Assembly: GCF_010681825.2 (NCBI RefSeq)
Contig: NZ_CP066776.1
Coordinates: 2,356,001 to 2,420,000, forward strand
DNA length: 64,000 bases
Direction of reading: 5' to 3'
Origin: Sulfuriroseicoccus oceanibius
GTDB lineage: Bacteria > Verrucomicrobiota > Verrucomicrobiia > Verrucomicrobiales > SLCJ01
Shown: positions 33,250-47,275 of the stretch, one piece after another
Layout: each line of letters begins with the position of its first letter
How positions within the stretch are numbered: the first letter of the stretch is position 1
Position numbers and translations under genes: made by a program
The notes under the pieces: model-generated
Seen by the model: the letters and a program-made list of their open reading frames with translations, nothing else
Told to the model about the DNA's origin: nothing
The model's database searches: none

Positions 33250-34749
33250 CTAGCGCGTTGCCTCAGACGGGCATCGGTATTCGTTGGTGCTAGGTGCGAT
33301 GCGGCTCACTACCACGATCGCCAGCCAGGCGAGCACAAAGCCGGGAATGATCTCGTACACCCCCGGACCACCGAGGAACGAGTCTCCCCAGCCCAGGTTG
33401 ATCCAGGCAATCACAGTCACCGCTCCAGTGACCATCCCGGCCACAGCTCCAGCGCCAGACATCTTCTTCCAAGTCAGCGCCAGAATGATCATCGGACCAA
33501 AGGCCGCGCCAAACCCGGCCCATGCATTGGAAACCAGTCCGAGCACTTTCGAGTTCGGATCGCCTGCCATCAACGCGGCAACAATGCCCACCAGCAAAAC
33601 GCAGATGCGACCAATCAGCACCAGCTGTTTCTGGCTCGCATCTTTGTTCATAAACAGACGGTAGAAATCCTCGGTCAGCGACGAGGACGAAACTAACAAC
33701 TGACTCGAAATCGTCGACATGATCGCCGCCAACAACGCAGCGTAAAGGAAGCCTGTCACCAGCGGGTGGAACAAGAATTCCGCCAGCATGATGAAAATGG
33801 TCTCCGGATCCTCAATCGACATCCCATTGCGCTCGATGTAGGCACGACCGAAAACCCCAAGACCAACCGCTCCGAGCACTGACACCGCCATCCAGCTCAT
33901 GCCAATGTTGCGCGCTGTAGCCACCGCTTTGATGGAACGCACCGCCATGAATCGCACAATGATGTGTGGCTGGCCGAAATAGCCCAATCCCCAACAGACC
34001 GCCGAAAGAAATCCTACAAAAGTCAGCCCCTCGAACATCGAAAAGAAAGTAGGATCAATCTCACTCAAACGATCGGTCGCAGCTCCCACTCCCTCTCCTT
34101 TGCCTGTGGTCAAGATGACAATCGGCATAATAATCAATGCCAACATCATAATACAACCCTGAACAAAGTCGGTGAGACTCACTGCAAGAAACCCACCCAC
34201 CACTGTATAAGTTAAAACAATCGCCAGCGTAAACCACACACCAAATGCATAGTCACTCATAAAGCTCAAATTGATCAAATCCCCGAAGGCGCTGGAGAAC
34301 AATTTACCACCTGCAACCAAACCTGACGCGGTGTAAACAATGAAGAATACCACCACAATCACCGCCGAGGTCATCCGCAGCGCCATCGCCTTTGTCGGGA
34401 AGCGGTTCGCTAAAAACTCAGGAATCGTTAACGCGTTGTCATAGCGCTCGGTCTGTTCGCGCAACCGCGGCGCCACCAGAATCCAGTTCACCAGAGCGCC
34501 AATGAATAGACCAATACCAATCCAGGCCTCCACCATCCCCGTCGCGTACAGCGCACCGGGTAATCCCATCAACAGCCAACCAGACATATCCGAGGCCCCG
34601 GCTGAAAGGGCCGCCACCGCCGGATGCAATCTCCGGCCACCTAACATGTATTCCTCTGAGTTCGAAGTAGACTTCTTTGCCGCGTAAAAACCAATCGCGA
34701 CCATCAATCCAAAATATGCTATTAAACTAATCCAAATCCCTATATCCAT
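33250..34749 (-). CDS. putP: Sodium/proline-type symporter (PutP family)
   Basis: A 499-residue sodium:solute symporter with about 13 transmembrane helices. Features are SAGASDMSGWLLMGLPGALYATG (sodium-site helix, as in PutP), LGYFGQPHIIVRFMAVRS, and TISSQLLVSSSSLTEDFYR in the late-helix sodium site. These favour proline uptake, though PutP-like transporters may carry other amino acids. No putA gene is nearby, so proline may serve as an osmolyte. The upstream 201 bp (34750-34950) are AT-richer than the surroundings, with a run of nine T at 34852-34860, and hold no gene. Confidence 0.9.
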   Translation of the reverse strand: MDIGIWISLIAYFGLMVAIGFYAAKKSTSNSEEYMLGGRRLHPAVAALSAGASDMSGWLLMGLPGALYATGMVEAWIGIGLFIGALVNWILVAPRLREQTERYDNALTIPEFLANRFPTKAMALRMTSAVIVVVFFIVYTASGLVAGGKLFSSAFGDLINLSFMSDYAFGVWFTLAIVLTYTVVGGFLAVSLTDFVQGCIMMLALIIMPIVILTTGKGEGVGAATDRLSEIDPTFFSMFEGLTFVGFLSAVCWGLGYFGQPHIIVRFMAVRSIKAVATARNIGMSWMAVSVLGAVGLGVFGRAYIERNGMSIEDPETIFIMLAEFLFHPLVTGFLYAALLAAIMSTISSQLLVSSSSLTEDFYRLFMNKDASQKQLVLIGRICVLLVGIVAALMAGDPNSKVLGLVSNAWAGFGAAFGPMIILALTWKKMSGAGAVAGMVTGAVTVIAWINLGWGDSFLGGPGVYEIIPGFVLAWLAIVVVSRIAPSTNEYRCPSEATR

Positions 34750-34950: not shown

Positions 34951-35934
34951 TTAGCCTATCGGCATCAACACATCACCCGATTCAAATACAAGTCGCGCAT
35001 CTTCCCAAACCATCACTTGGTAATCACCTCCCTGCCCCAGGGCTTCCACCAAGGCATCAAAGTGCGCTCCCCCGCCCACCGCGAAAGCCGTGGCAAAAGC
35101 ATCGGCTACCGCAGCTCCCTCGCGGCTGACCACGGCCACCACGCGGTTCCCATCGACCATCCGTCCTGTTAATGGATGCAACCAGGGCGCCCCCGGACGT
35201 ACAGCCGACACCGCCATCCCGGCATCGGCAAACTCCACCAAACCGACCAGCCCGGGTTCGCCAGCGCCGTCCTCACCGCTCACGCCCAGCATCCACGGGC
35301 GCCCATCAGGATGCTCACCGATCGCCCGGTTTTCGCCCAACTGCAACAGCGCGGAGCGCACCCCATTACGCTGCATACTCTCAGCCACTCGGTCGGCAAG
35401 CAAACCTTGAACCAGCGCGTTGAAGCTCAGCTCGGTGTCCGGGTTGGTCACGCGCACGCTCCGCCCATCGGTTTCCACAAAACGCATATCCGCCGCACGC
35501 AAAAGCCCCGCCCGGAGGCTTCGATCGTCGCGTTGCTCCCACGCCTTGCGCAATGCCGGCTGGAACAACCCTCCCGTGCGCTCGACCAACTGCCGACTTT
35601 GCGCCAGAACACTCAAGAAGACCGGCGAGGCCGATTCCAATACCCTCGACTGATTGAGCCGACTCAGCTCGGATTGGTCGCTGTACAAACTAAAAGCCGC
35701 CTCCAACTGCTGGATCGTACGCTCTATGGTATTACCAACATCCGCAGCCCCGGAGCTGCCCGACCACTGGGCCTGCATCTCGATGCCAAACCCAATCCCG
35801 CTCCACTGCCCCCCATCGGAAGCTGCCGCCGCCCGCTCCCGCCTCCCGTGCCGGCAACCGACACCGCCCATCCCCGCAACCAACGCCAGTGCGCCCGTGC
35901 GCAGGAAGTGCCTTCGGTTCACAGCTTGAGTCAT
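34951..35934 (-). CDS. apbE: FAD:protein FMN transferase (ApbE)
   Basis: A 327-residue exported enzyme that attaches FMN from FAD to threonine in FMN-binding domains. The start has a twin-arginine-like sequence NRRHFLRTGALALVAG followed by GGVGC, a possible lipobox. The ApbE domain shows SLYSDQSELSRLN, GGLFQPALRKAWE, the pattern SALLQLGENRAIGEHPDGRPW (usual dGGn replaced by LGEN) and AAVADAFATAFAVGG. The frame extends upstream to 36015, but the ATG at 35934 overlaps the stop of the preceding gene as ATGA. Its likely target is the FMN-binding protein encoded at 36783-37325 in the same cluster. Confidence 0.88.
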   Translation of the reverse strand: MTQAVNRRHFLRTGALALVAGMGGVGCRHGRRERAAAASDGGQWSGIGFGIEMQAQWSGSSGAADVGNTIERTIQQLEAAFSLYSDQSELSRLNQSRVLESASPVFLSVLAQSRQLVERTGGLFQPALRKAWEQRDDRSLRAGLLRAADMRFVETDGRSVRVTNPDTELSFNALVQGLLADRVAESMQRNGVRSALLQLGENRAIGEHPDGRPWMLGVSGEDGAGEPGLVGLVEFADAGMAVSAVRPGAPWLHPLTGRMVDGNRVVAVVSREGAAVADAFATAFAVGGGAHFDALVEALGQGGDYQVMVWEDARLVFESGDVLMPIG

Positions 35935-36770
35935 GCCTTTTGCCCATGTGCTTTGGCGCGGCGCATCGTGCGCACCTGCAACACAAGCCCCGAGCCAATC
36001 AGGCACAGCGTACACAACGCCACAAAATCATAAAAGTACGCAGACCACGGACCTAGAAAATGTCCCGCATGCAAGTCGCGCACCAACCGGGCCACCGGGA
36101 TCCCACCGCCCGACCAGTTTCGGCGTAACTCATCCACTTGATCAGAGTTGCTCAACGCAGCCAACCCGACTTCGTTCGCGGGCTCGTCCATCGCGGTGAA
36201 CTCAATCCAATCCTCATCGATCACAGACCATCCCTCGGCCGTCGCAACTGCCAACCGCTCGTCCGCCACACCGGCAGCCATCAACGGCGTGCCCGGCAAA
36301 CTCAACTCATCCAGCCGCTCGACCACCTCGCCATCCAGGCCCACCCGCACGACCGCATCATCATAGACCAACGCAAAAGATCCACTCAATGGCACCGCTG
36401 TCACCAGATCGCCATCCCAGGGCATCGCCTGCGAATCCCAAAACACCACGCCATCCCAGACACTTAACCGATGGCCATTACCCGCAACCTCGCGCGGCTC
36501 ACCCGCCGGACTCATGCCATACATCGAAAGTACCCAGGAAGCACTGACCTTGCGCTCGTTGAGCCCCCAATCCTCACTGTGGTTCAACACCACGCCAGTC
36601 AGCAACACCCACACCAACGGCAAGGCCACAATCAGCCCGAAAAACCGGTGCCCCGGCCGAGCCTTGCGCTTTTTGCGCATCGCCGGCTTGCGCCTCACCA
36701 CATCACACACGGGCGAACACCCGGCTTGAAAGGAAATTTTTGGATCCTGTTCGTTGTTTGTTTCTGACAT
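35931..36770 (-). CDS. PepSY-associated-type two-helix membrane protein
   Basis: A 279-residue inner-membrane protein with one helix near residues 42-62 (FFGLIVALPLVWVLLTGVVL, then NHSEDWGLN) and a second near 245-265 (ALCTLCLIGSGLVLQV), with an extracytoplasmic domain between. The layout and the motif VRDLHAGHFLGPWSAYFYD resemble PepSY-associated membrane proteins, which carry histidines able to bind heme or act in transmembrane electron transfer. The middle domain has beta-propeller-like strands. In the cluster it sits between the FMN-binding protein (12 bp upstream) and ApbE (4-bp overlap), so it is a good candidate for passing electrons between membrane quinol and the flavinylated protein. 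Confidence 0.72.
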   Translation of the reverse strand: MSETNNEQDPKISFQAGCSPVCDVVRRKPAMRKKRKARPGHRFFGLIVALPLVWVLLTGVVLNHSEDWGLNERKVSASWVLSMYGMSPAGEPREVAGNGHRLSVWDGVVFWDSQAMPWDGDLVTAVPLSGSFALVYDDAVVRVGLDGEVVERLDELSLPGTPLMAAGVADERLAVATAEGWSVIDEDWIEFTAMDEPANEVGLAALSNSDQVDELRRNWSGGGIPVARLVRDLHAGHFLGPWSAYFYDFVALCTLCLIGSGLVLQVRTMRRAKAHGQKA

Positions 36771-36782
36771 TCCGGCTCGGCT

Positions 36783-37325
36783 CTAGTTCCCAACTTGCTG
36801 CGTCAGGTACAAGGCCGCGGCCCCCACCTTCTTCAATGCATTGACCGACAACGTCGCGCCGACAATACCATCCACTCGCGTGCTCAATCGGTCGCCCTTC
36901 AGCGAGGCTCCCACAAATTGCTTGGTAAAAAACGGCCGGGTCACCTCCCAGCCATGGCTCTCCCGGTAAATCAGCACCTTAAGCTCGCTGATCTTCCCAT
37001 TGCGCACCACCACACCGGTTGTAATCGGCTCGCTCTTGCCGATCTCCTGCAGGATCCACGCCGTGCGCCCGTTGCCCTGCCAATACCGGATCTTCTTCTC
37101 CGGATACTTGTGCCCGAAAATCTTCTTCAACCCCGCCGACTGCTTGGCATTGAGCTTCAACACCTGGGTCTTGGGCACCCCACCGAAATGACGCTTCATG
37201 AACGCCGACGGCTTCTCGTACACCTTCTCCTGCGCACCCGCCACGCCCACCGACATCACACACCAACACAAAACAAACGCCCTACCCAAAAGCGGTAGAA
37301 CGGATCGGCTCAGACGATGGCGCAT
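36783..37325 (-). CDS. Exported FMN-binding-domain protein, flavinylation substrate
   Basis: A 180-residue exported protein with a signal peptide ending near VGVAGA (residues 25-31). Near the C-terminus DGIVGATLSVNAL (152-164) matches the ApbE recognition motif [D]GxxGAT, so Thr158 is the predicted FMN attachment site. The domain (about 85-165) resembles the NqrC/RnfG FMN-binding fold, but here it is a small soluble version. I chose the ATG at 37325, with GGGAG 5 nt upstream; the longer open frame starts inside the hairpin at 37347-37380 and is unlikely. The residues AFMKRHFGGVPKTQVLKL (41-58) resemble the start of other quinol-linked FMN-binding proteins. Confidence 0.83.
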   Translation of the reverse strand: MRHRLSRSVLPLLGRAFVLCWCVMSVGVAGAQEKVYEKPSAFMKRHFGGVPKTQVLKLNAKQSAGLKKIFGHKYPEKKIRYWQGNGRTAWILQEIGKSEPITTGVVVRNGKISELKVLIYRESHGWEVTRPFFTKQFVGASLKGDRLSTRVDGIVGATLSVNALKKVGAAALYLTQQVGN

Positions 37326-37346
37326 GCTCACTCCCATACAAAACAA

Positions 37347-37380
37347 CATGGACTGGCTGCCCTGCGACAGCCAGTCCATG
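37347..37380 (-). terminator. 13-bp hairpin between porin and flavoprotein genes
   Basis: A perfect 13-bp stem CATGGACTGGCTG/CAGCCAGTCCATG with an 8-nt loop, followed on the minus strand by TTGTTTTG. It lies 12 nt after the porin stop and 22 nt before the flavoprotein start. It may terminate part of the porin transcripts, so expression of the electron-transfer genes would be lower than that of the porin, or it may protect the porin mRNA from exonucleases. Confidence 0.7.
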
Positions 37381-37391
37381 AAAGGATTTTT

Positions 37392-38480
37392 TTAGAAATA
37401 CCAGCCGAAGCCCACATTGTAGGTCTCGGTGGTACCAGGCTTGCCGGCCTGATCAGCGTTGAGATAGTCGGCCTTGAGGACGATGTTCTCTGTCAGCCAG
37501 TAGTTCACACCTGCGTTCAGCTCGGTCACTTCCTTGAGCGCACCGCCGGTGAAGTACTCGTACTGAGATGCACGGCCGAACACACCGATCTTACCCACTG
37601 GGGTTTCCCAAGTGTAGGACGGCTCGAGGTATCCCCCCCACTGCTCGTCGGCGGCACCTTCCACGTCCAGGTTCCAGTAAGCGGCAAGACCGACAAACTG
37701 GAAGCCGCCCTTGCGGTAGATGCCGTGGGTGGAAAGCAGCAGACCATCTTGGTCGCCGTCCACACTTCCATCGACGTCCGACTGGTACTGAGCCGAGCCA
37801 GCCAACTCAACACCGGCGATTCCGGTGTACTTCACACGGGTCGTTGCAGCCCAGCGGTCGCCATTGATCGCGAACTCCTCAAACTCGTAACCGGAACGAC
37901 CACCGCGGATGCTGTCGCCTTCCATATCCAACCCCGAGTGCACCAAGGCATCAATCTGCCAGCCGGTGTCGTAGGTCTTCACCACGCCACCACCAAGCTC
38001 GGTCCAAGTGGTCGGCAAAATGTATTTCTCCACGTTCGGGCGCTCCACACCGAAGAAGGTTGTCGGCTCGTGCACCTCGTTGATCACGCCCACAGGCAGG
38101 ATGATCAAACCAGCCTTGGCAGCGAGCTGGTCGGTCAGCGCGTAGTTGAAGTACGCTTGCTCGATCTTGAATTCCACGCCATCGGCAGTCCAGCTGGAGC
38201 CTTCCTTCTTGCGCACCAGGTGCTCGATCTCGGTCTCGGTGACCAATTCAAGCTTATCGGTGAAGTGGACGTCGGCAAAAAGCACTGCGCGATGCAGGTC
38301 GAGCGTCTCGGTTCCGTCGCCAAAGTTGGCGTGAAACTCACCATAAGATCCAAACGAAAAATGATCCCAGAACGACTTCTCCTTGGTGAAGGAGGCGTCG
38401 AGATCTTCGCTCGCCGTGCCGGCAACCGCCGATCCAGCGATCCCCATTCCTGCTGCCACTACTAGTGCCTTGTTCATCAT
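37392..38480 (-). CDS. Outer-membrane porin, phosphate-selective porin O/P-like
   Basis: A 362-residue beta-barrel protein. A signal peptide covers about residues 1-21 (ending GSAVAG). The start SFWDHFSFGSYGEFHANFGDG, then TLDLHRAVLFADVHFTDKLELVTE, and the C-terminal NVGFGWYF with a terminal aromatic residue are barrel signatures. It resembles the OprO/OprP-type porins common in Verrucomicrobiota, although ion selectivity cannot be told. The open frame extends to 38855 but the paired ATGs at 38480 and 38477 give the proper signal peptide. It heads the porin, FMN-binding protein, membrane protein, ApbE cluster. Confidence 0.85.
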   Translation of the reverse strand: MMNKALVVAAGMGIAGSAVAGTASEDLDASFTKEKSFWDHFSFGSYGEFHANFGDGTETLDLHRAVLFADVHFTDKLELVTETEIEHLVRKKEGSSWTADGVEFKIEQAYFNYALTDQLAAKAGLIILPVGVINEVHEPTTFFGVERPNVEKYILPTTWTELGGGVVKTYDTGWQIDALVHSGLDMEGDSIRGGRSGYEFEEFAINGDRWAATTRVKYTGIAGVELAGSAQYQSDVDGSVDGDQDGLLLSTHGIYRKGGFQFVGLAAYWNLDVEGAADEQWGGYLEPSYTWETPVGKIGVFGRASQYEYFTGGALKEVTELNAGVNYWLTENIVLKADYLNADQAGKPGTTETYNVGFGWYF

Positions 38481-38778
38481 ATCGTGTGCTTGATTTGCCC
38501 CGCTCAAATTGGGGAGCGGACAGATAGCGAGACTGAATCTCAATAGCAAGGTGTTTTTTGTCCGTTTTGCCACATTGCCCCCGTCTCCAATTCCTCCCTG
38601 CCAAATCGCCCCAAACCAATCCCAATGCACCCGCCGCCGATCACCGCCCCCGAACTCAAGAACGCAATCGACCTCATCGTACCAGCCGAAGCACCCCACA
38701 GTCGGACCTCCTGCGCGTTCTGTGCTCATCCCTCTCTTGTATCCGCGGTCATCAACTGCCATGATCCGCATCCCGTAG
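38481..38778. other. 298-bp divergent intergenic region
   Basis: Separates the porin gene (leftward) from the DUF4838 gene (rightward). No gene or clear regulatory element is visible. It should contain both promoters. Frames crossing it are low-complexity shadows. Confidence 0.5.
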
Positions 38779-41073
38779 ATGAAGCATCTGATTTCCTTAC
38801 TTCTCACCGCCCTTGTGGCATGCACAATCGCGCCCGCGCAAATTACTATCGCCACTCGCGGCGAGCCGGCCGACTATACCATCGTTCTTCCCGCTCAGGC
38901 CTCCCCAGCACAACATCACGCGGGACGCGAACTACAACGCTTCACCGAAGAGATGACCGGAGTGCGGCTCCCCATCATCTCCGACGCACACCCCCTCCCG
39001 GAGCATGCCATCGTACTTGGCTCAACCCGCCACACGGAAACCATCCTCGAAAGTTCCTCCGATCTGGCATCACTCGGCCCCGATGGATTTCGCATCACCA
39101 CCAAGCCTCCCCATCTCTTGATCATCGGAGGTCCTGAACGAGGCACGCTTTACGGAGTATACGAAACACTCGAACAATTTGCCGGATGCCGTTGGTACAG
39201 CAGCTGGCATCATGTCATCCCGCAGCTGGAATCCTGGACTCTGCCCGAGATTGATCAAACCCAACGCCCGGCATTCTCCGTGCGCGAGCCTTTGTGGTTC
39301 GATTGTTTTCATGGTGACTGGGCGGCCCGTAACAAAATCAACGGCAGTAGAATGGAGCTGGGTGCCCATCACGGCGGCAAAGTCCGCTTTGGCCGAGGAC
39401 TATTCGTTCACACTTTCAACACACTGTGCCCACCATCCGAGTTCTTCGACCACCATCCGGAGTATTTCAGCGAGGTCGACGGCAAACGTATTCATCACCG
39501 TACCCAACTCTGCCTCACCAACCCGGCCGTCGTACGCATCGTTACGCAGCGTCTATTAGAACACATCCGCGAGGATCCCGAGGCCAAGCTCTTCAGTGTC
39601 AGCCAAAACGACTGGGGCAACCCATGCACCTGCAGCTACTGCAAGGCGATCGACGACCGAGAGGGCTCGCACGCGGGGTCGCTGATCCACTTCGTCAATC
39701 AAGTGGCAACCGCGGTGGAAAAGGAATTCCCCGACGTATGGATAGAAACCCTAGCTTACCAGTACACCCGCACGCCCCCAAAGACGGTCCGCCCACGCCA
39801 CAACGTCGTGCCCCGGCTGTGTTCTATCGAGTGCGACTTTTCCCAACCGCTGGCAGTCAGCAACTACCCGCAGAATGAGAGTTTCGTCTCCGATCTTCGA
39901 GGCTGGAGCAAAATCTCCCACCAGCTCTTCATCTGGGATTACACCACCAACTACCGCCACTATCTGGCACCATTTCCCAACGTCCTCAGCCTCCAGAAGA
40001 ACATCCAACTCTTCCGCGATCAAGGCGTCGTTGGATTGTTGGAACAGGGAGCCTACCAAGGTAGGCATGCCGACTTCGCAGAGCTCAAAGGCTGGCTGCT
40101 CTCAAAGTGGATGTGGAATCCTGACCTCCCCGCAGAACCGTTGATCGACGACTTCTTCAGTGGCTACTACGGCGCTGCAGCCCCATTTGTTCGCCGCTAC
40201 TTCGACGAACTCCATAGCTTCTATGACAATCCAAAATCCGCACCTCTTCGCATTTACTATCACATCTCCGACCGCGTGATCCCTGATGCTTTCTACGCCC
40301 GCGCCGCGAAACTCTGGCAACAAGCCGAAGCTGCTGTCCATGATTCACCGGCGCATCTCTACAACGTGCGGATGGGTGCCTTGCCTGTGCTCTATACCCA
40401 GCTCATGCGGATGCCCAACCCCGACCAGATCAAAATTTGGGTGACAGAGGCACCTCAGCTCTACCAAGCACCAGCCACCCGCCACGCCCTCGCCACAGAA
40501 GTACTCAAGCGCATGGACGAAGCCGGTGACATCCGCCTCTCGGAAGCCTGGCACTTGGAACAAAAATCCCTGAATCAGTGGCGACACTGGGCCGCCACAC
40601 CGAAAGCGCCGTCGGTCCCAGCCCCTCAAACCAAAGCCCTCGTGGAAGACACCGTCCTGGACCTCACAAACCGCGGCGTCTGGGGAGACACCATATCCGA
40701 CAACCGCACCAACGACGGCTACGCCCTAAAACTCTTCAACTCATACGGCAAGCGCCCCGCCACCCTCGACTTCCATCACGTCGCATTCGATCACGGCAAA
40801 ACCTACCGTCTCCGGATCCGGCTGCGGGGGAAAAATCACTCGCAACAAAACGCGCCGGCATTCACAGCTGGGATCTATGACCCAAGGTCCAAAAGCGCGA
40901 TTGTCGAACTAAAGCCCGAGTCTTCAAGCACCGACTACGCGTGGTACCAACTCGAAGACTGGATACCAGAGGACCACCACATATTCTGGATCGCCCCCGC
41001 TCGTGATCCCGCCGACACGACAGCCAGGCCTGCCGTGTATCTCGACAAAATTGAGATCCTCAGGGTCGATTAG
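38779..41073 (+). CDS. DUF4838 exported glycoside hydrolase-like protein
   Basis: A 764-residue secreted protein with a signal peptide ending at TIAPA (residues 1-20). Residues 25-120 are an alpha-glucuronidase-N-terminal-like domain (AGRELQRFTEEMTGVRLPII, then LGSTRHTE, GGPERGTLYGVYETLEQFAGCRW). DUF4838 follows (about 190-480): FSVSQNDWGNPCTCSYCKAID with a Cys-x-Cys-x2-Cys set, and FIWDYTTNYRHYLAPFPN. The C-terminal 150 residues look like a beta-sandwich carbohydrate-binding module. Such proteins are frequent in polysaccharide-degrading marine and gut bacteria, but the substrate is unknown. The sulfatase at 56297-57679 suggests use of sulfated or acidic glycans, without direct linkage. Confidence 0.83.
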   Translation: MKHLISLLLTALVACTIAPAQITIATRGEPADYTIVLPAQASPAQHHAGRELQRFTEEMTGVRLPIISDAHPLPEHAIVLGSTRHTETILESSSDLASLGPDGFRITTKPPHLLIIGGPERGTLYGVYETLEQFAGCRWYSSWHHVIPQLESWTLPEIDQTQRPAFSVREPLWFDCFHGDWAARNKINGSRMELGAHHGGKVRFGRGLFVHTFNTLCPPSEFFDHHPEYFSEVDGKRIHHRTQLCLTNPAVVRIVTQRLLEHIREDPEAKLFSVSQNDWGNPCTCSYCKAIDDREGSHAGSLIHFVNQVATAVEKEFPDVWIETLAYQYTRTPPKTVRPRHNVVPRLCSIECDFSQPLAVSNYPQNESFVSDLRGWSKISHQLFIWDYTTNYRHYLAPFPNVLSLQKNIQLFRDQGVVGLLEQGAYQGRHADFAELKGWLLSKWMWNPDLPAEPLIDDFFSGYYGAAAPFVRRYFDELHSFYDNPKSAPLRIYYHISDRVIPDAFYARAAKLWQQAEAAVHDSPAHLYNVRMGALPVLYTQLMRMPNPDQIKIWVTEAPQLYQAPATRHALATEVLKRMDEAGDIRLSEAWHLEQKSLNQWRHWAATPKAPSVPAPQTKALVEDTVLDLTNRGVWGDTISDNRTNDGYALKLFNSYGKRPATLDFHHVAFDHGKTYRLRIRLRGKNHSQQNAPAFTAGIYDPRSKSAIVELKPESSSTDYAWYQLEDWIPEDHHIFWIAPARDPADTTARPAVYLDKIEILRVD

Positions 41074-41179: not shown

Positions 41180-44100
41180 ATGCGCACGTTTCCGTCCTTC
41201 TTCCGCGCCCACTGGTTGCTCACCCTTTTGTTGAGTCTCATTTGTGTTGGAGGGCTCAGGGCGCAGACTCCGGTGTCGCGTGATGTGCCTGACGTTTACC
41301 GGGAGCTAATTGACCAGCGCCTCACCAAGCTGGACGATCTGCTGGAAGGCGGTCATCCCGAGAGCAAGGAGTCCATCGATGGCGAGGTGCTCCTACGCGA
41401 ATACCTTTATTGGGTGGACGAGGACGGCAAGTCCCACCGCATTTTCCACACTGTTTACCACGCCCACACCCAGGACGGCGTCGAGGCCATGGCTCAGGAC
41501 CGCTTCGCCTTCGATGCCAAATTAACCCGGGTGCATCTGGCGGCCGCGCGCACCATCGGCGCCGACGGCACAGTCAAAGAAGTCGCGGATAACGCAGCCT
41601 TCATCGAACGAGGACGTCAGGAAAATGCCACCCAACTCTACAACTCCGACCACTCGGTGGTCGTGATCTACCCGGATGTGAAAATGGGGAGTCTGGTCGA
41701 AACCATTCTCGTCTATGAAGAGGTCGAACAACAAATCCCCGGTGAATTCACCACCGTCCTCGGCTTTTCCACCGGCTGGCCCGTAACCCACGACCGCCGC
41801 GAGATCGATCTCCCGACCCCGCTCTTCGAGAAGCTCAATCAGGACCAGCTAGGCGACGACGTCCCTCAGATGGAAATCGTCAGCCAAATGGCCGGCCGCA
41901 CACGTCTGCGTTGGAGCGCCGACCACCTCGATCGCGGGTTCAGTGAGCGCTCGGAAGCTCCCAGCTCGCAGACCGGGCCTTGTGTGTTCCTTTCCACCCT
42001 CCCCGACTGGGATGCCTTCACTACGTGGTACAGCGGCGTGCTGGCGGAGCGCTCGACACTCTCGGATGAGCTCAAACAACAAGTCGACAGCTGGACCGAA
42101 GGCCTCGACTCCGACGAGCAGATCCTACGGGCACTCTTTGAAAAGGCCGCCAACGATGTGCGCTACACCGGACTCGAATTCGGCTTCTCAGGCCTTCGTC
42201 CCTATGCCTGCAACACGGTGTGGGACAACCAATATGGCGACTGCAAAGACAAGTCCAACCTCCTGCGTGCCATGCTCGCCCACAAGGGGATCAACGCCTA
42301 CCTGACGCTCGTGCAAACCAGCCACGCCGGCCTGGTGCCAAAAGGAGTAGCGGACTTCCGCCGCTTCGATCACGCGATTCTCGCCGTTGAGCTCAAACCG
42401 GGGAAATGGATCTTCTGTGACCCAACCATCGAGCACGGCCGCCCGGGCACGCTCAGCCCGTCGAGCTCGGACCGCGAGGTGCTGGTAGTGGTGGGCGAAC
42501 GTGCCCAGTGGATGCGCACGCCACCAGCCACCGGGTTGAAGTACCACTACGCGCTCAGCTTGGACTTGAGCGACAGCTACCAAATCACCGGCACACTCGA
42601 AAGCACCGGCTCAGGCTACTACTCGATCAGCGAACTCAGACGCCACAGCGGCGCCGGCCGCGACGCAGCTTTGGGCAATCTGCACGACCTCGTTGGTGCC
42701 TTCTTCCCCAGTGCGTGGGCCATCGATTACCAAGAGCCGGAAACCGACGTCATCACCGCGCCTGACACGTTCACCAACCGCAGCTATCTGATCACCCCGT
42801 CGCTGCAAACCGATTCGGAGAACCGCATCCACCTTCCGTTCCCGATGCCGCGTGGACTACTCTACGATTACGGCCACACGGAAAAGCGCCACACTAACTA
42901 CTTCCAATGGCCGGAAACCACCGAGATCACGGTCACTTTGCGCCTTCCAAACCACCTCACCCCGGCCTCGCTCCCGGCACCTCTGGAATCGATCAACCCA
43001 TACTATGCTGCCCGGGGACAGTGGACATTCGATAAAGCCACCCATACTCTGGCGGCCACATTGACCAACACCACCGGCCGCTCGGTGATCCCGAAAAACC
43101 AGGTCGCCACGGCATTGGAAACCACACGCGCATTGACCACCTGGGTACAGGCACCGGTTATTCTGGAACCGAAAGAACCAGCGGACACTGCCGCCGACCA
43201 GCGCCAGACGCTGAAACTTCCAACCGCCAAGGGACAGCTCGCCTACATCGACGCGCGCTTCCCCATCCACGGCGATCGCCACGCACGCCGCGACCAACTC
43301 ACCGCCGTGCGTGCCGCCTACCCTGACGATACAGCCACCCAGTATCAGGTGCGTCACGAACTCGCGATGCTTGATTTCTACGCCAATCGGTTTGACCAAG
43401 CCATCACGACATGGAGCGAACTGGTCGCAAACCGCCCCGCCGACATCCCTGACTCAAGCGCGCATTTCTCCCGCTACATGCTGGCGCAAGCCCACGCCGA
43501 CAACGGTTCCCATGACGAGGCCTTCGCCGCGCTGCGCCCGTTGCTGGAGACCAAAGGAGTCAGCGACTACCGCCTGGGCTGGAGCCTCACGTGTGCCGGT
43601 GAGTTCGCGATCCATGGAGCCACCGTTGAGAACGCCGATGAGTACCTGCGCCGCGCCTTGGAGATCGACGGAGCGCACCGCGACCAAGCGAACGCCCTGT
43701 TGTTTGTGCTGCATTGCTTCGAAGCGAACGAGGAAGCGGCAACACAATGGCTGACGAATGCTCTGCGCCGTCCACTGGCCGAGTTCGAGCCGGTCATGCG
43801 TGCGGCCTACACTGTTTTTGACGAGTTCCGCCCCGAGGAAGATGCGCAGGACGCGCTGCTGCTGGCGGCCCGCGTGATCGACTCGGTCTGTGCAGCCCCC
43901 GCAGGTGATGAAATCGAGGAATCGCAGAACTTCGCCACCGCCTACCCCGCGTTCTTCAAATCAATGCACGCCGCGCGCCACGCAAACCTGGTGCTTGGAC
44001 CACAATTCCAGAAGTTCGTCGCATCAAACCGTGAACGCCTCGTCGCCTACGCTCCGGATTTGGACCCACTGGCCAACGCCAGCGCCGATGAGCACAAAGC

Positions 44101-47100
44101 CCGCATCGAGAAGCTGATGACTGCCGACGACAAACAGATCGTCGCCGCGATCGCCCACTACGTGAGCCAACACCCATGCACCGACCTGCCTGAGCAACTC
44201 TGGCGCATGGCAGCATTTGTGAGCTCGGAAGAACTCAAACAATCGCCTGCAACCCCGCTGACACCACAGCTGATTGCTCTCGGCGAGCAGATCCCGTTCA
44301 GCAACAGCAATCGTTGGGAGTTCGACTTCATTCGCGCCAAGTGGCTGTTCCACGACAAGAATTGGCAGCAAGCCATTGAGATGTTCCAAGCCCAGCGCGC
44401 CCATCCGGAGTTCAACACCGACTTCCGCTCCTCCTCCATCTACCAGGAAGGCCAATGCCACGAATTTCTCGGAGCCTGGGATAAGGCGATCGACTGTTAT
44501 CTCCAGCTCAAAGGCTCCCACACCACGCTGCCAACCGCAGCCACCGCGGTGATGCGCGCCGGTGTGTTGCAAGCGCGCGAGGGACGCCACGACGAGGCGT
44601 TGGCGACGTGGACATTGTTGCACGACGTACCGGAATCAGTGATCACCCGCTCCAGCGCTGAAGTGGACTTGAAGGAGGCGATCAAGCTGAGCAAACGCCC
44701 GGAGGCGCTGCTCAACTACTGGAAGGCAGCAGAACAATGGTGGCAGAAAGTAGCGCGCCGCCATCTCGGGGCCTGTGGAGTTTCAGTCAAAGATCACCGC
44801 ATCGAGCCTTATCTGAGCGCTACCGCACCTGCCCTTGAGTCCGCGATCATGAGAAGCGCGCAAGGCAACGACGGAGAGGCCTACCTGACCGCTTTGCTGC
44901 CGCTCATCGACTACCTGCGTTGGTCGCCAAATGGGCTTGAGCTGATCTACAATCAGTTCCAGATCGCAGCGATCGACAACAACCCGAGGCTCAAAAAACA
45001 CACCAACGTAATCGCTCAATCGATCGCTGGCGCAGTGGTTGACTTCGGCGATCCGGAGCTGATCCCCTACGCCCAGCGCCTGAACGTCGCGCTTCTCATT
45101 GATGGGGGGCAATCGGATCAGGCGCTGCCATTGGCTCGCACTTACGTCGAGCAAATGCAACGCTACGACAGAAACCACATCGAACGTCTGATCTGGCTCT
45201 ACATGATGGCATCCGTCCAGTCGGGAGAGAACTTGGAGGAGTCCTCCGCCGAGGGCCTGAAGGTGTGGCAAAACGGGATCAGCCAGATGGATCCCCACCA
45301 GTTTGGCAATTCGCTGGGCTGGGCATTGAGGGAAGCCGGACGCAACGACGACGCTCTCGCCGTGGCACAAGCAGCTCTCCAATTACAGACGAACACACCG
45401 GCATACACCAACCTCTTGAGAAAACTGGTGACCACCATCCAGGCGGAAGCCAAATCATCGGGCGAGCTGAACACCGCATTGCTCGATTGGGCACAGCAGA
45501 ACCGCCCGGTCTGGTACGACTTGGTGGAGGCCCCGACTCCAGACTCGTTGGAGTTCGCCCCAACCGCAGCGAGTCTCAAGTTCCACCTCCAGTTGGTCGC
45601 AGACGAATCTGCTCCTGCCGCACAGCGACTCAAAGCGTGGCAGGACGCCGTGCTCACCATTGCCGAGCAGGAGCCTCAGTGGGCAGGTTTTGTCGACGTC
45701 GTCAGCCAGGCCGCTCGACTTGAAGCCATCCCCGCCACAACGAAAGCCCAGGCCATTTGGCGCGCATACACCTACGCTTGCTATCAAGGGCACCCCCGCG
45801 CCGCACGCAAATTGCGCAACCTGCCCGCCTTCCAACAGCTCAACGCTCACATCCTGACCGATCTCTCGCCACGGCTGATGGACCACGCCGCCGCCGTGCG
45901 CTACCGCGACGCTGACCAGCACCTAGCCAATATCGACAGCCTCACGCAAGTGGATGAAATCGATGATGCGCTGCGTGAACTCATCAGTACCGAGTTGCGC
46001 GGGCTGTGGATCCTTGGAGAAGTGGAAGCTGCCGAGGAAGTCATCAAGTCGGTGAAGTCATGGAAGCTCAGCGATGACTCGTTTACCTTCAAACTAGGTC
46101 TCCAGATGGGGCTGCGCAAAGCGAGTCATCAACTCCAGCACGAAATGGCGCTGGCAGATGAATGGACTACGCTGCTCCAGCCTCAACTGGAGCTCGCTGC
46201 CACCAAGGCACCGCGTGACTGGCGGGAATGGCGCTCAAGGACCACCATGCACAGTGGTCTCCCCTTCACCGGTCTGGATGAAGCCGCTATCGACGGCATC
46301 CTGGCAAAGCGGATCCTCGAACGCTCGATGATTCACTCAACCCCGCATCTCTCGCAATTCCTCATGTCCCCAAGGCTGTGGCCCGCCGCCAGCGACGAAG
46401 GTGCAGCGGAAACCTACGGAGCCGCAGTGAAGGCAATGATGGAATCAAAACTCGAATCCGACCTTAAAGCCGACTGCCTGATCCGATTCTACAGTCTCGT
46501 GCCGCGCGACCGTGCGATGCGGAAGCACATCGCCGATGTGCTTGAGCCGCACACCGAATCACCACACAAGCACCTGCGCGCCATGGTGACTTGCATTCGG
46601 ACCGGTTTCCTGGCATCCGCTGGAGAAAAGCCCGCGCCTGGATCTCTTGATGCACAAGAACTCAATGCGTTCAGGGAAGCCATCGCCCACTTCTTCCAGC
46701 CGACTCTGGCTTTGGCTTACGGAGACGAGGCCACCCGCTCAGCCACGCTTGAGACGGTACGCAATACGGAGGCAACATCCACAGAGCCGGAACTCGGAAA
46801 ACTCATGGCGTTGGCTCTTCTCACCGACTCCCCGGTCGCTGACGTTGCGAAGGAACTGAAATTATCCGTGCTGGATCAGAACATCGACCGCTGGTGGTAC
46901 GAAGCCCCTGGAGCGATCAGATCACAGATCGCCTCGCTTATTCTCACCGGCCGCAGCGAAGAGATCCCCGCCGAGCTTCTACCCTGGCTGATCTCCCGCA
47001 CCAACGCCACGACTGCCCACACGCTTCACGCGCTCGACGCTTGGCGCCGCGGTGATTTCAAGACCATGCTCAAGCACACTGCCAAGGCCCAACTCCACGA

Positions 47101-47275
47101 CCAGGAAACCGCTACCTTGCTCCACGCCATCGCGCTGGCAGGCACCGGCCAAAAGCAAGACTCCCGTGTACTTTTGCAACACCTCACCTCCGACCTCTAC
47201 CTCGACAACGACGTCTGGATGGCCGCCAAACTCGTGCTGCGATCACTGAGCACACAGGAAACCGCCGCAGAATAA
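41180..47275 (+). CDS. Giant exported DUF3857/transglutaminase-like protein with helical repeats
   Basis: A 2031-residue protein without frameshift. A signal peptide covers residues 1-28 (ending GGLRA). Residues about 50-290 match the DUF3857 N-terminal domain. A transglutaminase-like core follows with a Cys-His-Asp triad: Cys near 355 (NQYGDCKDKSNLL), His near 398 (RFDHAILAVEL) and Asp near 413 (IFCDPTIEHG). A beta-sandwich DUF3858-like part runs to about 640. The remaining 1400 residues are alpha-helical TPR/solenoid-like repeats rich in alanine, tryptophan and leucine, with recurrent patterns such as YQVRHELAMLDFYANRFDQAITTW. DUF3857 proteins are usually 600-1200 residues; this is far longer. 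It could modify or cross-link envelope proteins. It stands alone, followed by tandem repeats. Confidence 0.85.
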   Translation: MRTFPSFFRAHWLLTLLLSLICVGGLRAQTPVSRDVPDVYRELIDQRLTKLDDLLEGGHPESKESIDGEVLLREYLYWVDEDGKSHRIFHTVYHAHTQDGVEAMAQDRFAFDAKLTRVHLAAARTIGADGTVKEVADNAAFIERGRQENATQLYNSDHSVVVIYPDVKMGSLVETILVYEEVEQQIPGEFTTVLGFSTGWPVTHDRREIDLPTPLFEKLNQDQLGDDVPQMEIVSQMAGRTRLRWSADHLDRGFSERSEAPSSQTGPCVFLSTLPDWDAFTTWYSGVLAERSTLSDELKQQVDSWTEGLDSDEQILRALFEKAANDVRYTGLEFGFSGLRPYACNTVWDNQYGDCKDKSNLLRAMLAHKGINAYLTLVQTSHAGLVPKGVADFRRFDHAILAVELKPGKWIFCDPTIEHGRPGTLSPSSSDREVLVVVGERAQWMRTPPATGLKYHYALSLDLSDSYQITGTLESTGSGYYSISELRRHSGAGRDAALGNLHDLVGAFFPSAWAIDYQEPETDVITAPDTFTNRSYLITPSLQTDSENRIHLPFPMPRGLLYDYGHTEKRHTNYFQWPETTEITVTLRLPNHLTPASLPAPLESINPYYAARGQWTFDKATHTLAATLTNTTGRSVIPKNQVATALETTRALTTWVQAPVILEPKEPADTAADQRQTLKLPTAKGQLAYIDARFPIHGDRHARRDQLTAVRAAYPDDTATQYQVRHELAMLDFYANRFDQAITTWSELVANRPADIPDSSAHFSRYMLAQAHADNGSHDEAFAALRPLLETKGVSDYRLGWSLTCAGEFAIHGATVENADEYLRRALEIDGAHRDQANALLFVLHCFEANEEAATQWLTNALRRPLAEFEPVMRAAYTVFDEFRPEEDAQDALLLAARVIDSVCAAPAGDEIEESQNFATAYPAFFKSMHAARHANLVLGPQFQKFVASNRERLVAYAPDLDPLANASADEHKARIEKLMTADDKQIVAAIAHYVSQHPCTDLPEQLWRMAAFVSSEELKQSPATPLTPQLIALGEQIPFSNSNRWEFDFIRAKWLFHDKNWQQAIEMFQAQRAHPEFNTDFRSSSIYQEGQCHEFLGAWDKAIDCYLQLKGSHTTLPTAATAVMRAGVLQAREGRHDEALATWTLLHDVPESVITRSSAEVDLKEAIKLSKRPEALLNYWKAAEQWWQKVARRHLGACGVSVKDHRIEPYLSATAPALESAIMRSAQGNDGEAYLTALLPLIDYLRWSPNGLELIYNQFQIAAIDNNPRLKKHTNVIAQSIAGAVVDFGDPELIPYAQRLNVALLIDGGQSDQALPLARTYVEQMQRYDRNHIERLIWLYMMASVQSGENLEESSAEGLKVWQNGISQMDPHQFGNSLGWALREAGRNDDALAVAQAALQLQTNTPAYTNLLRKLVTTIQAEAKSSGELNTALLDWAQQNRPVWYDLVEAPTPDSLEFAPTAASLKFHLQLVADESAPAAQRLKAWQDAVLTIAEQEPQWAGFVDVVSQAARLEAIPATTKAQAIWRAYTYACYQGHPRAARKLRNLPAFQQLNAHILTDLSPRLMDHAAAVRYRDADQHLANIDSLTQVDEIDDALRELISTELRGLWILGEVEAAEEVIKSVKSWKLSDDSFTFKLGLQMGLRKASHQLQHEMALADEWTTLLQPQLELAATKAPRDWREWRSRTTMHSGLPFTGLDEAAIDGILAKRILERSMIHSTPHLSQFLMSPRLWPAASDEGAAETYGAAVKAMMESKLESDLKADCLIRFYSLVPRDRAMRKHIADVLEPHTESPHKHLRAMVTCIRTGFLASAGEKPAPGSLDAQELNAFREAIAHFFQPTLALAYGDEATRSATLETVRNTEATSTEPELGKLMALALLTDSPVADVAKELKLSVLDQNIDRWWYEAPGAIRSQIASLILTGRSEEIPAELLPWLISRTNATTAHTLHALDAWRRGDFKTMLKHTAKAQLHDQETATLLHAIALAGTGQKQDSRVLLQHLTSDLYLDNDVWMAAKLVLRSLSTQETAAE

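Follow-up and report, generated by a model that had tools for sequence, protein, structure and literature searches.

Gene organization of the locus

What would a porin be doing at the head of an operon for a putatively flavinylated redox protein? This question is raised by a four-gene cluster on the minus strand of the window, by which we mean the whole stretch of 64,000 nucleotides analysed here (positions 2,356,001 to 2,420,000 of contig NZ_CP066776.1 of Sulfuriroseicoccus oceanibius). From 5' to 3', the open reading frames of the cluster encode a 362-amino-acid porin (37392..38480), predicted to form a 16-stranded, OprP-like outer-membrane barrel; an exported FMN_bind protein of 180 amino acids (36783..37325); a PepSY_TM protein of 279 amino acids with two helices, equivalent to half of FoxB (35931..36770); and a divergent member, 327 amino acids long, of the FAD:protein FMN transferase family, ApbE (34951..35934). 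The Pfam matches agree with this reading for FMN_bind (27.7 bits, cut-off 22, E-value 4.2e-6), PepSY_TM (46.7 bits, cut-off 28.8, E-value 4.8e-12) and ApbE (102.7 bits, cut-off 25.6, E-value 3.2e-29), the window porin itself having no Pfam match, and an Rfam scan of the window returned nothing. Gene positions and order are thus those given by the initial annotation, which was also right about the 4-bp overlap, an ATGA common to the PepSY_TM stop and the ApbE start, and about the ApbE motif with Thr158, the GAT threonine being residue 158 when translation starts at the ATG at 37325. At the search thresholds used, the 3.5-Mb single-contig genome holds one copy each of the FMN_bind, porin and PepSY_TM families, and two copies of ApbE.

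The cluster is flanked by a divergent gene for a DUF4838 protein whose N-terminal domain is of the GH67 type (38779-41073), which is followed on the plus strand by a gene for a 2031-amino-acid protein (41180-47275), and, downstream of ApbE, by a gene for a PutP-type sodium/proline symporter (33250-34749). The adjacency of neither the DUF4838 gene nor the symporter gene is conserved.

Conservation of the cluster in other genomes

When 388 genomes of the phylum were searched with a small profile of the FMN_bind protein, 31 contained a match, about 13 of these matches being strong. At E <= 1e-15, the profile also matched in 77 of the 369 sampled genomes of the Gammaproteobacteria, the class to which a Moraxellaceae MAG belongs. 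In all, 57 homologous loci, that of the window included, were then read in Verrucomicrobiota and Gammaproteobacteria. The loci were picked by FMN_bind similarity, so that linkage to a porin was not selected for, although those of Gammaproteobacteria came mostly from the better matches. The initial annotation had named in advance, as the observation that would speak against its proposal, a porin gene not conserved in the neighbourhood; the porin gene was found on the same strand upstream of the FMN_bind gene in 55 of the 57 loci, directly so in 54, which bears out the claim that it is part of the unit. Other genes separate the two in L120; L052 stops at a contig edge, and L054 has no porin. The PepSY_TM gene follows the FMN_bind gene in 48 of the loci, and ApbE is adjacent in seven, including the window, all of them from the class Verrucomicrobiae.

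The most constant partner of the FMN_bind protein is therefore the porin, ahead of PepSY_TM and then of ApbE. These counts, together with some Verrucomicrobiota loci consisting of porin and FMN_bind alone, indicate that porin and flavoprotein make up the core of the system and that ApbE is a lineage-specific addition, which reverses the earlier view that a porin as first gene was the less usual feature. Since the same order recurs in dozens of genomes, the arrangement is not due to chance. In a tree of the FMN_bind proteins, the ApbE-linked Verrucomicrobiae form one group together with L044 (support 91/77), whose contig ends near the FMN_bind gene. A recent horizontal import of the window copy is disfavoured by this grouping of the class. 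A tblastn search with a family member against plasmids gave no match.

Some loci contain further genes. In L120, a 643-amino-acid protein that has two CXXCH motifs but matches no Pfam family is encoded between the porin and FMN_bind genes (L120:5928-7859). In L011, the genes for a second porin of the same family and for a di-haem CCP_MauG peroxidase form a pair that is divergent to the operon of porin, FMN_bind and PepSY (L011:4108-6454).

The flavoprotein and its flavin transferase

The flavinylation motif of the window protein is DGIVGAT (D152 to T158). With respect to the published consensus for ApbE substrates, D-x-x-[S/T]-G-A-[S/T] (PMC12052999), the D, G, A and T are kept and Val replaces Ser/Thr. 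The GAT motif with its threonine is invariant in all 57 loci. All 41 Gammaproteobacteria loci have Ser or Thr directly before it, but the window protein and that of Rubritalea have Val, and three other Verrucomicrobiota have Ala. A Val at this position does not exclude flavinylation, since RnfG of the solved structure 8rb9 has an Ala before GAT (DQFAGAT). The exported protein is predicted to carry FMN covalently bound to Thr158. An origin of the protein in an Nqr or Rnf complex was considered and rejected, because it is the only FMN_bind protein detected in the genome.

It had been assumed that the neighbouring ApbE is the flavinylating enzyme, which is not necessarily the case. In ApbE of V. 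cholerae the catalytic set comprises Ser241, His257 and Asp285, and an H257G mutant has decreased activity (PMC12052999). The cluster ApbE keeps S243 and D278 of this set, but its His loop is shortened, reading PWLHPLTG instead of HxxDPxTG, so that the equivalent of His257 is displaced or lost, the alignment of the window His being ambiguous. In the cluster ApbE of Rubritalea the loop reads RKLVNPLTG and the His is lost, and it is kept in the five other cluster ApbEs. The second ApbE of the genome (C1, about 511006; L002:1411-2412) has a canonical HILDPKTG. Given a degenerate loop in the one and a canonical copy elsewhere in the genome, the second enzyme, rather than that of the cluster, may flavinylate Thr158. 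It adjoins a gene read from its translation as SUMF1/formylglycine-type, and no FMN_bind gene lies nearby.

The two-helix membrane protein

The membrane helices of the PepSY_TM protein lie at residues 39-63 and 237-276 of its model, and three histidines are conserved across the loci (H41 in 93%, H64 in 89% and H234 in 97%). Its only significant relative of solved structure is FoxB (7abw), the four helices of which align to the window protein as two repeats, H41 and H234 falling on the repeat histidines at heme positions on both membrane faces. The window protein therefore corresponds to one FoxB repeat, and a homodimer of it would rebuild two bis-His heme sites. Judging from this alignment, the protein probably forms such a homodimer and would bind heme b. 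FoxB-type proteins are recognized by at least four helices together with periplasmic PepSY domains, whereas here there are two helices and a periplasmic part that is modelled, at moderate confidence (pLDDT 64), as beta-rich. In a fold search, nothing matched the two-helix model significantly (best E 0.04, matches to beta-propellers being discounted). The heme-type membrane partner that the initial annotation placed in an ApbE-type extracytosolic flavin system is supported in outline, with heme as the putative cofactor.

The porin and the hairpin behind its gene

The porin model has 16 strands at modest confidence (pLDDT 62), and its top fold match is OprP (2o4v; E 1.4e-11), with 12% identity over the match. 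Porin_O_P (PF07396) is matched by 18 of 24 family members, the window porin not being among them. When the porin sequence was compared with solved structures, the matches obtained were all chance ones, to repetitive designed proteins. Conserved positions include E48, H50, E82, E84, E86, H87, E107, H137 and E138, with E82, E84 and E86 on one strand.

A 15-bp hairpin followed by a T-rich tail is located 3' of the porin stop, between the porin and FMN_bind genes (37347..37380, minus strand). A strong hairpin, in many cases with a T-run, is present in 24 of 31 homologous gaps of at least 25 nt, a count made without a shuffle control. The hairpin is probably a partial terminator, and partial termination after the porin gene suggests that more porin than redox protein would be made.

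Iron control

Many of the porin upstream regions carry sites resembling a Fur box, such as TAAATGATAATGATTTGCATTTA. When a generic Fur box was scored over 14 positions, 26 of 55 porin upstream regions scored at least 12/14, in comparison with 13 out of 530 control promoters taken from these loci (Fisher p 1e-20); once the porin starts had been re-set, 25 of 55 did so, in comparison with 0.8% of dinucleotide shuffles. A strong box is absent from about half of the porin upstream regions, and none was found upstream in the Verrucomicrobiota loci without a PepSY_TM gene.

Sites of the class Verrucomicrobiae follow the pattern TTGAGAYTSADTCTC. In the window, the palindrome TTGAGATTCAGTCTC (38529..38543, minus strand), located upstream of the porin start and contained in the extended Fur-box-like site CTATTGAGATTCAGTCTCGCTAT (38525-38547, minus strand), is the only exact match in the genome to the pattern derived from the orthologs, and it scores 11/14 against the generic Fur box. 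Five sites in the genome match with one mismatch, and none matches the reversed pattern used as a control. One of the five precedes a TonB/ExbB/ExbD operon, and another an operon for ferritin and an Fe(III)-type ABC transporter. Of the other three, according to names read from translations, one adjoins a transposase-like gene, one is located in front of a gene resembling that of an acyl-CoA transferase, and one is close to a LysR-type gene. The genome encodes three FUR-family proteins and FeoB. With a predicted Fur site and a fur gene, the two features by which a Fur regulon is recognized, the operon is apparently iron-controlled.

FeoB is encoded directly upstream of the operon in L110 and L115, which count as one event since they are two close relatives within the Gammaproteobacteria. 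Both FeoB and the Fur-like boxes are in keeping with the earlier hint of a metal-ligand complex entering through the porin. In L105 the operon has genes for imelysin, for the di-haem oxidoreductase DHOR and for ferritin as neighbours (L105:10843-13921), in L050 it has a flavodoxin gene beside it, and in L046 a DtxR-type repressor with a FeoA domain is encoded about 3 kb away.

Proposed function and alternatives

In our judgement the cluster is likely to be a Fur-controlled operon for reductive iron assimilation. When iron is short, Fur would leave the promoter at 38529-38543, and small Fe(III) complexes would reach the periplasm through the porin, which the hairpin behind its gene would probably keep in excess over the redox proteins. 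The two-helix homodimer would rebuild the pseudo-twofold core of FoxB, with b hemes held by the H41 pair and the H234 pair, and would conduct electrons to the periplasmic side from the quinol pool as putative donor, the operon itself encoding no electron donor. The covalent FMN on Thr158, attached by an ApbE that here could be the canonical copy at C1:511006, would take up these electrons so that the FMN_bind protein could turn Fe(III) into Fe(II), which FeoB would then bring into the cell.

The same components could instead serve respiration, the flavoprotein and heme protein passing quinol electrons to an extracytosolic acceptor, whether a metal oxide or a humic or organic compound, which enters, or is reached, through the porin. 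The pairing of a porin with a redox protein recalls porin-cytochrome conduits, and heme-motif proteins occur beside some loci (L011, L120), but most neighbourhoods lack multiheme cytochromes and the Fur-type boxes indicate iron starvation. The window porin does match ExtI, a porin of selenite/tellurite operons, but weakly (E 0.044) and far below the ExtI cut-off, and we regard a respiratory role as unlikely. It could also be the case that another metal, such as copper, is reduced for oxidase assembly, as proposed for CrpH, a PepSY_TM protein linked to copper whose His sites are of the same kind (PMC13038864). The conserved Glu and His residues of the porin could bind several metals; nevertheless, the Fur-type sites and the FeoB and ferritin neighbours point to iron, and in the loci examined no copper genes were noticed next to the operon, which makes this role decidedly improbable. 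A role of the flavoprotein in keeping proteins of the periplasm or outer membrane in a reduced state, for repair or under stress, with the porin as a co-regulated passenger, is very improbable, since a passenger would not be the most constant partner, even if a path for electrons from the membrane to the periplasm is generic and L110 and L115 have a peroxiredoxin-like gene near the operon.

One aspect of reductive iron assimilation through this cluster calls for comment. Porins have no energised concentration step, so that the capture of scarce Fe(III) is hard to explain. A speculative reading, which we put forward as a possibility rather than an expectation, is a TonB-independent uptake of iron, widespread in both Gammaproteobacteria and Verrucomicrobiota. 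A dedicated porin would bind Fe(III) in a lumen lined by Glu and His and pass it to a docked covalent flavoprotein, which would reduce it, the reduction driving the uptake.

Relation to known systems

Meheust et al. (2021, PMC8238504) linked PepSY-like flavin clusters to Fur and to the reduction of iron, and known PepSY_TM proteins include ferrisiderophore reductases (PMC13038864, PMC13001220). The definition of such clusters in PMC8238504, a PF03929 or PF16357 protein clustered with FMN_bind or ApbE, includes the window cluster, which shares with them a PF03929 membrane protein, a flavinylated protein (predicted as such in the window) and, as is often found, ApbE. In contrast, the usual substrate in those clusters is DUF2271 and the outer-membrane partner a TonB receptor, in place of which FMN_bind and a porin are found here; the membrane protein of the window is half-size, and the text of PMC8238504 does not mention the word "porin". 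PepSY-like flavinylation is thus known, and what is new is the FMN_bind substrate, the half-size membrane protein and the porin partner. The ferrisiderophore reductases FoxB, HiuB and FsrB share the PepSY_TM helices and the membrane His positions (FoxB 7abw), but they are twice the size, have PepSY domains where the window protein is predicted to be beta-rich, and differ from the window operon in its additional flavoprotein and its lack of a TonB receptor. The porin resembles OprP and OprO (PF07396) in predicted fold and through its family members, and departs from them in its low identity, its lack of a Pfam match and its conserved charged positions, with many Glu and His. RnfG and NqrC have in common with the flavoprotein the FMN_bind domain and the GAT threonine, RnfG 8rb9 likewise being without Ser/Thr before GAT; the window protein, however, is exported and encoded in a porin operon, outside an Rnf or Nqr complex.

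For bacteria that have two membranes, iron uptake has mostly been described as proceeding through TonB receptors and siderophores. No description of a porin/FMN_bind/PepSY iron system was found in the open-access literature, and the cluster is probably a widespread, undescribed route by which iron is reduced and taken up in the absence of a dedicated receptor for siderophores. If this is true, about one fifth of the sampled Gammaproteobacteria genomes would have a testable route for the uptake of weakly bound iron, FMN_bind proteins and half-size PepSY_TM proteins of unknown function would be assigned a role, and the operon would be a Fur-controlled one whose fixed outer-membrane partner is a porin.
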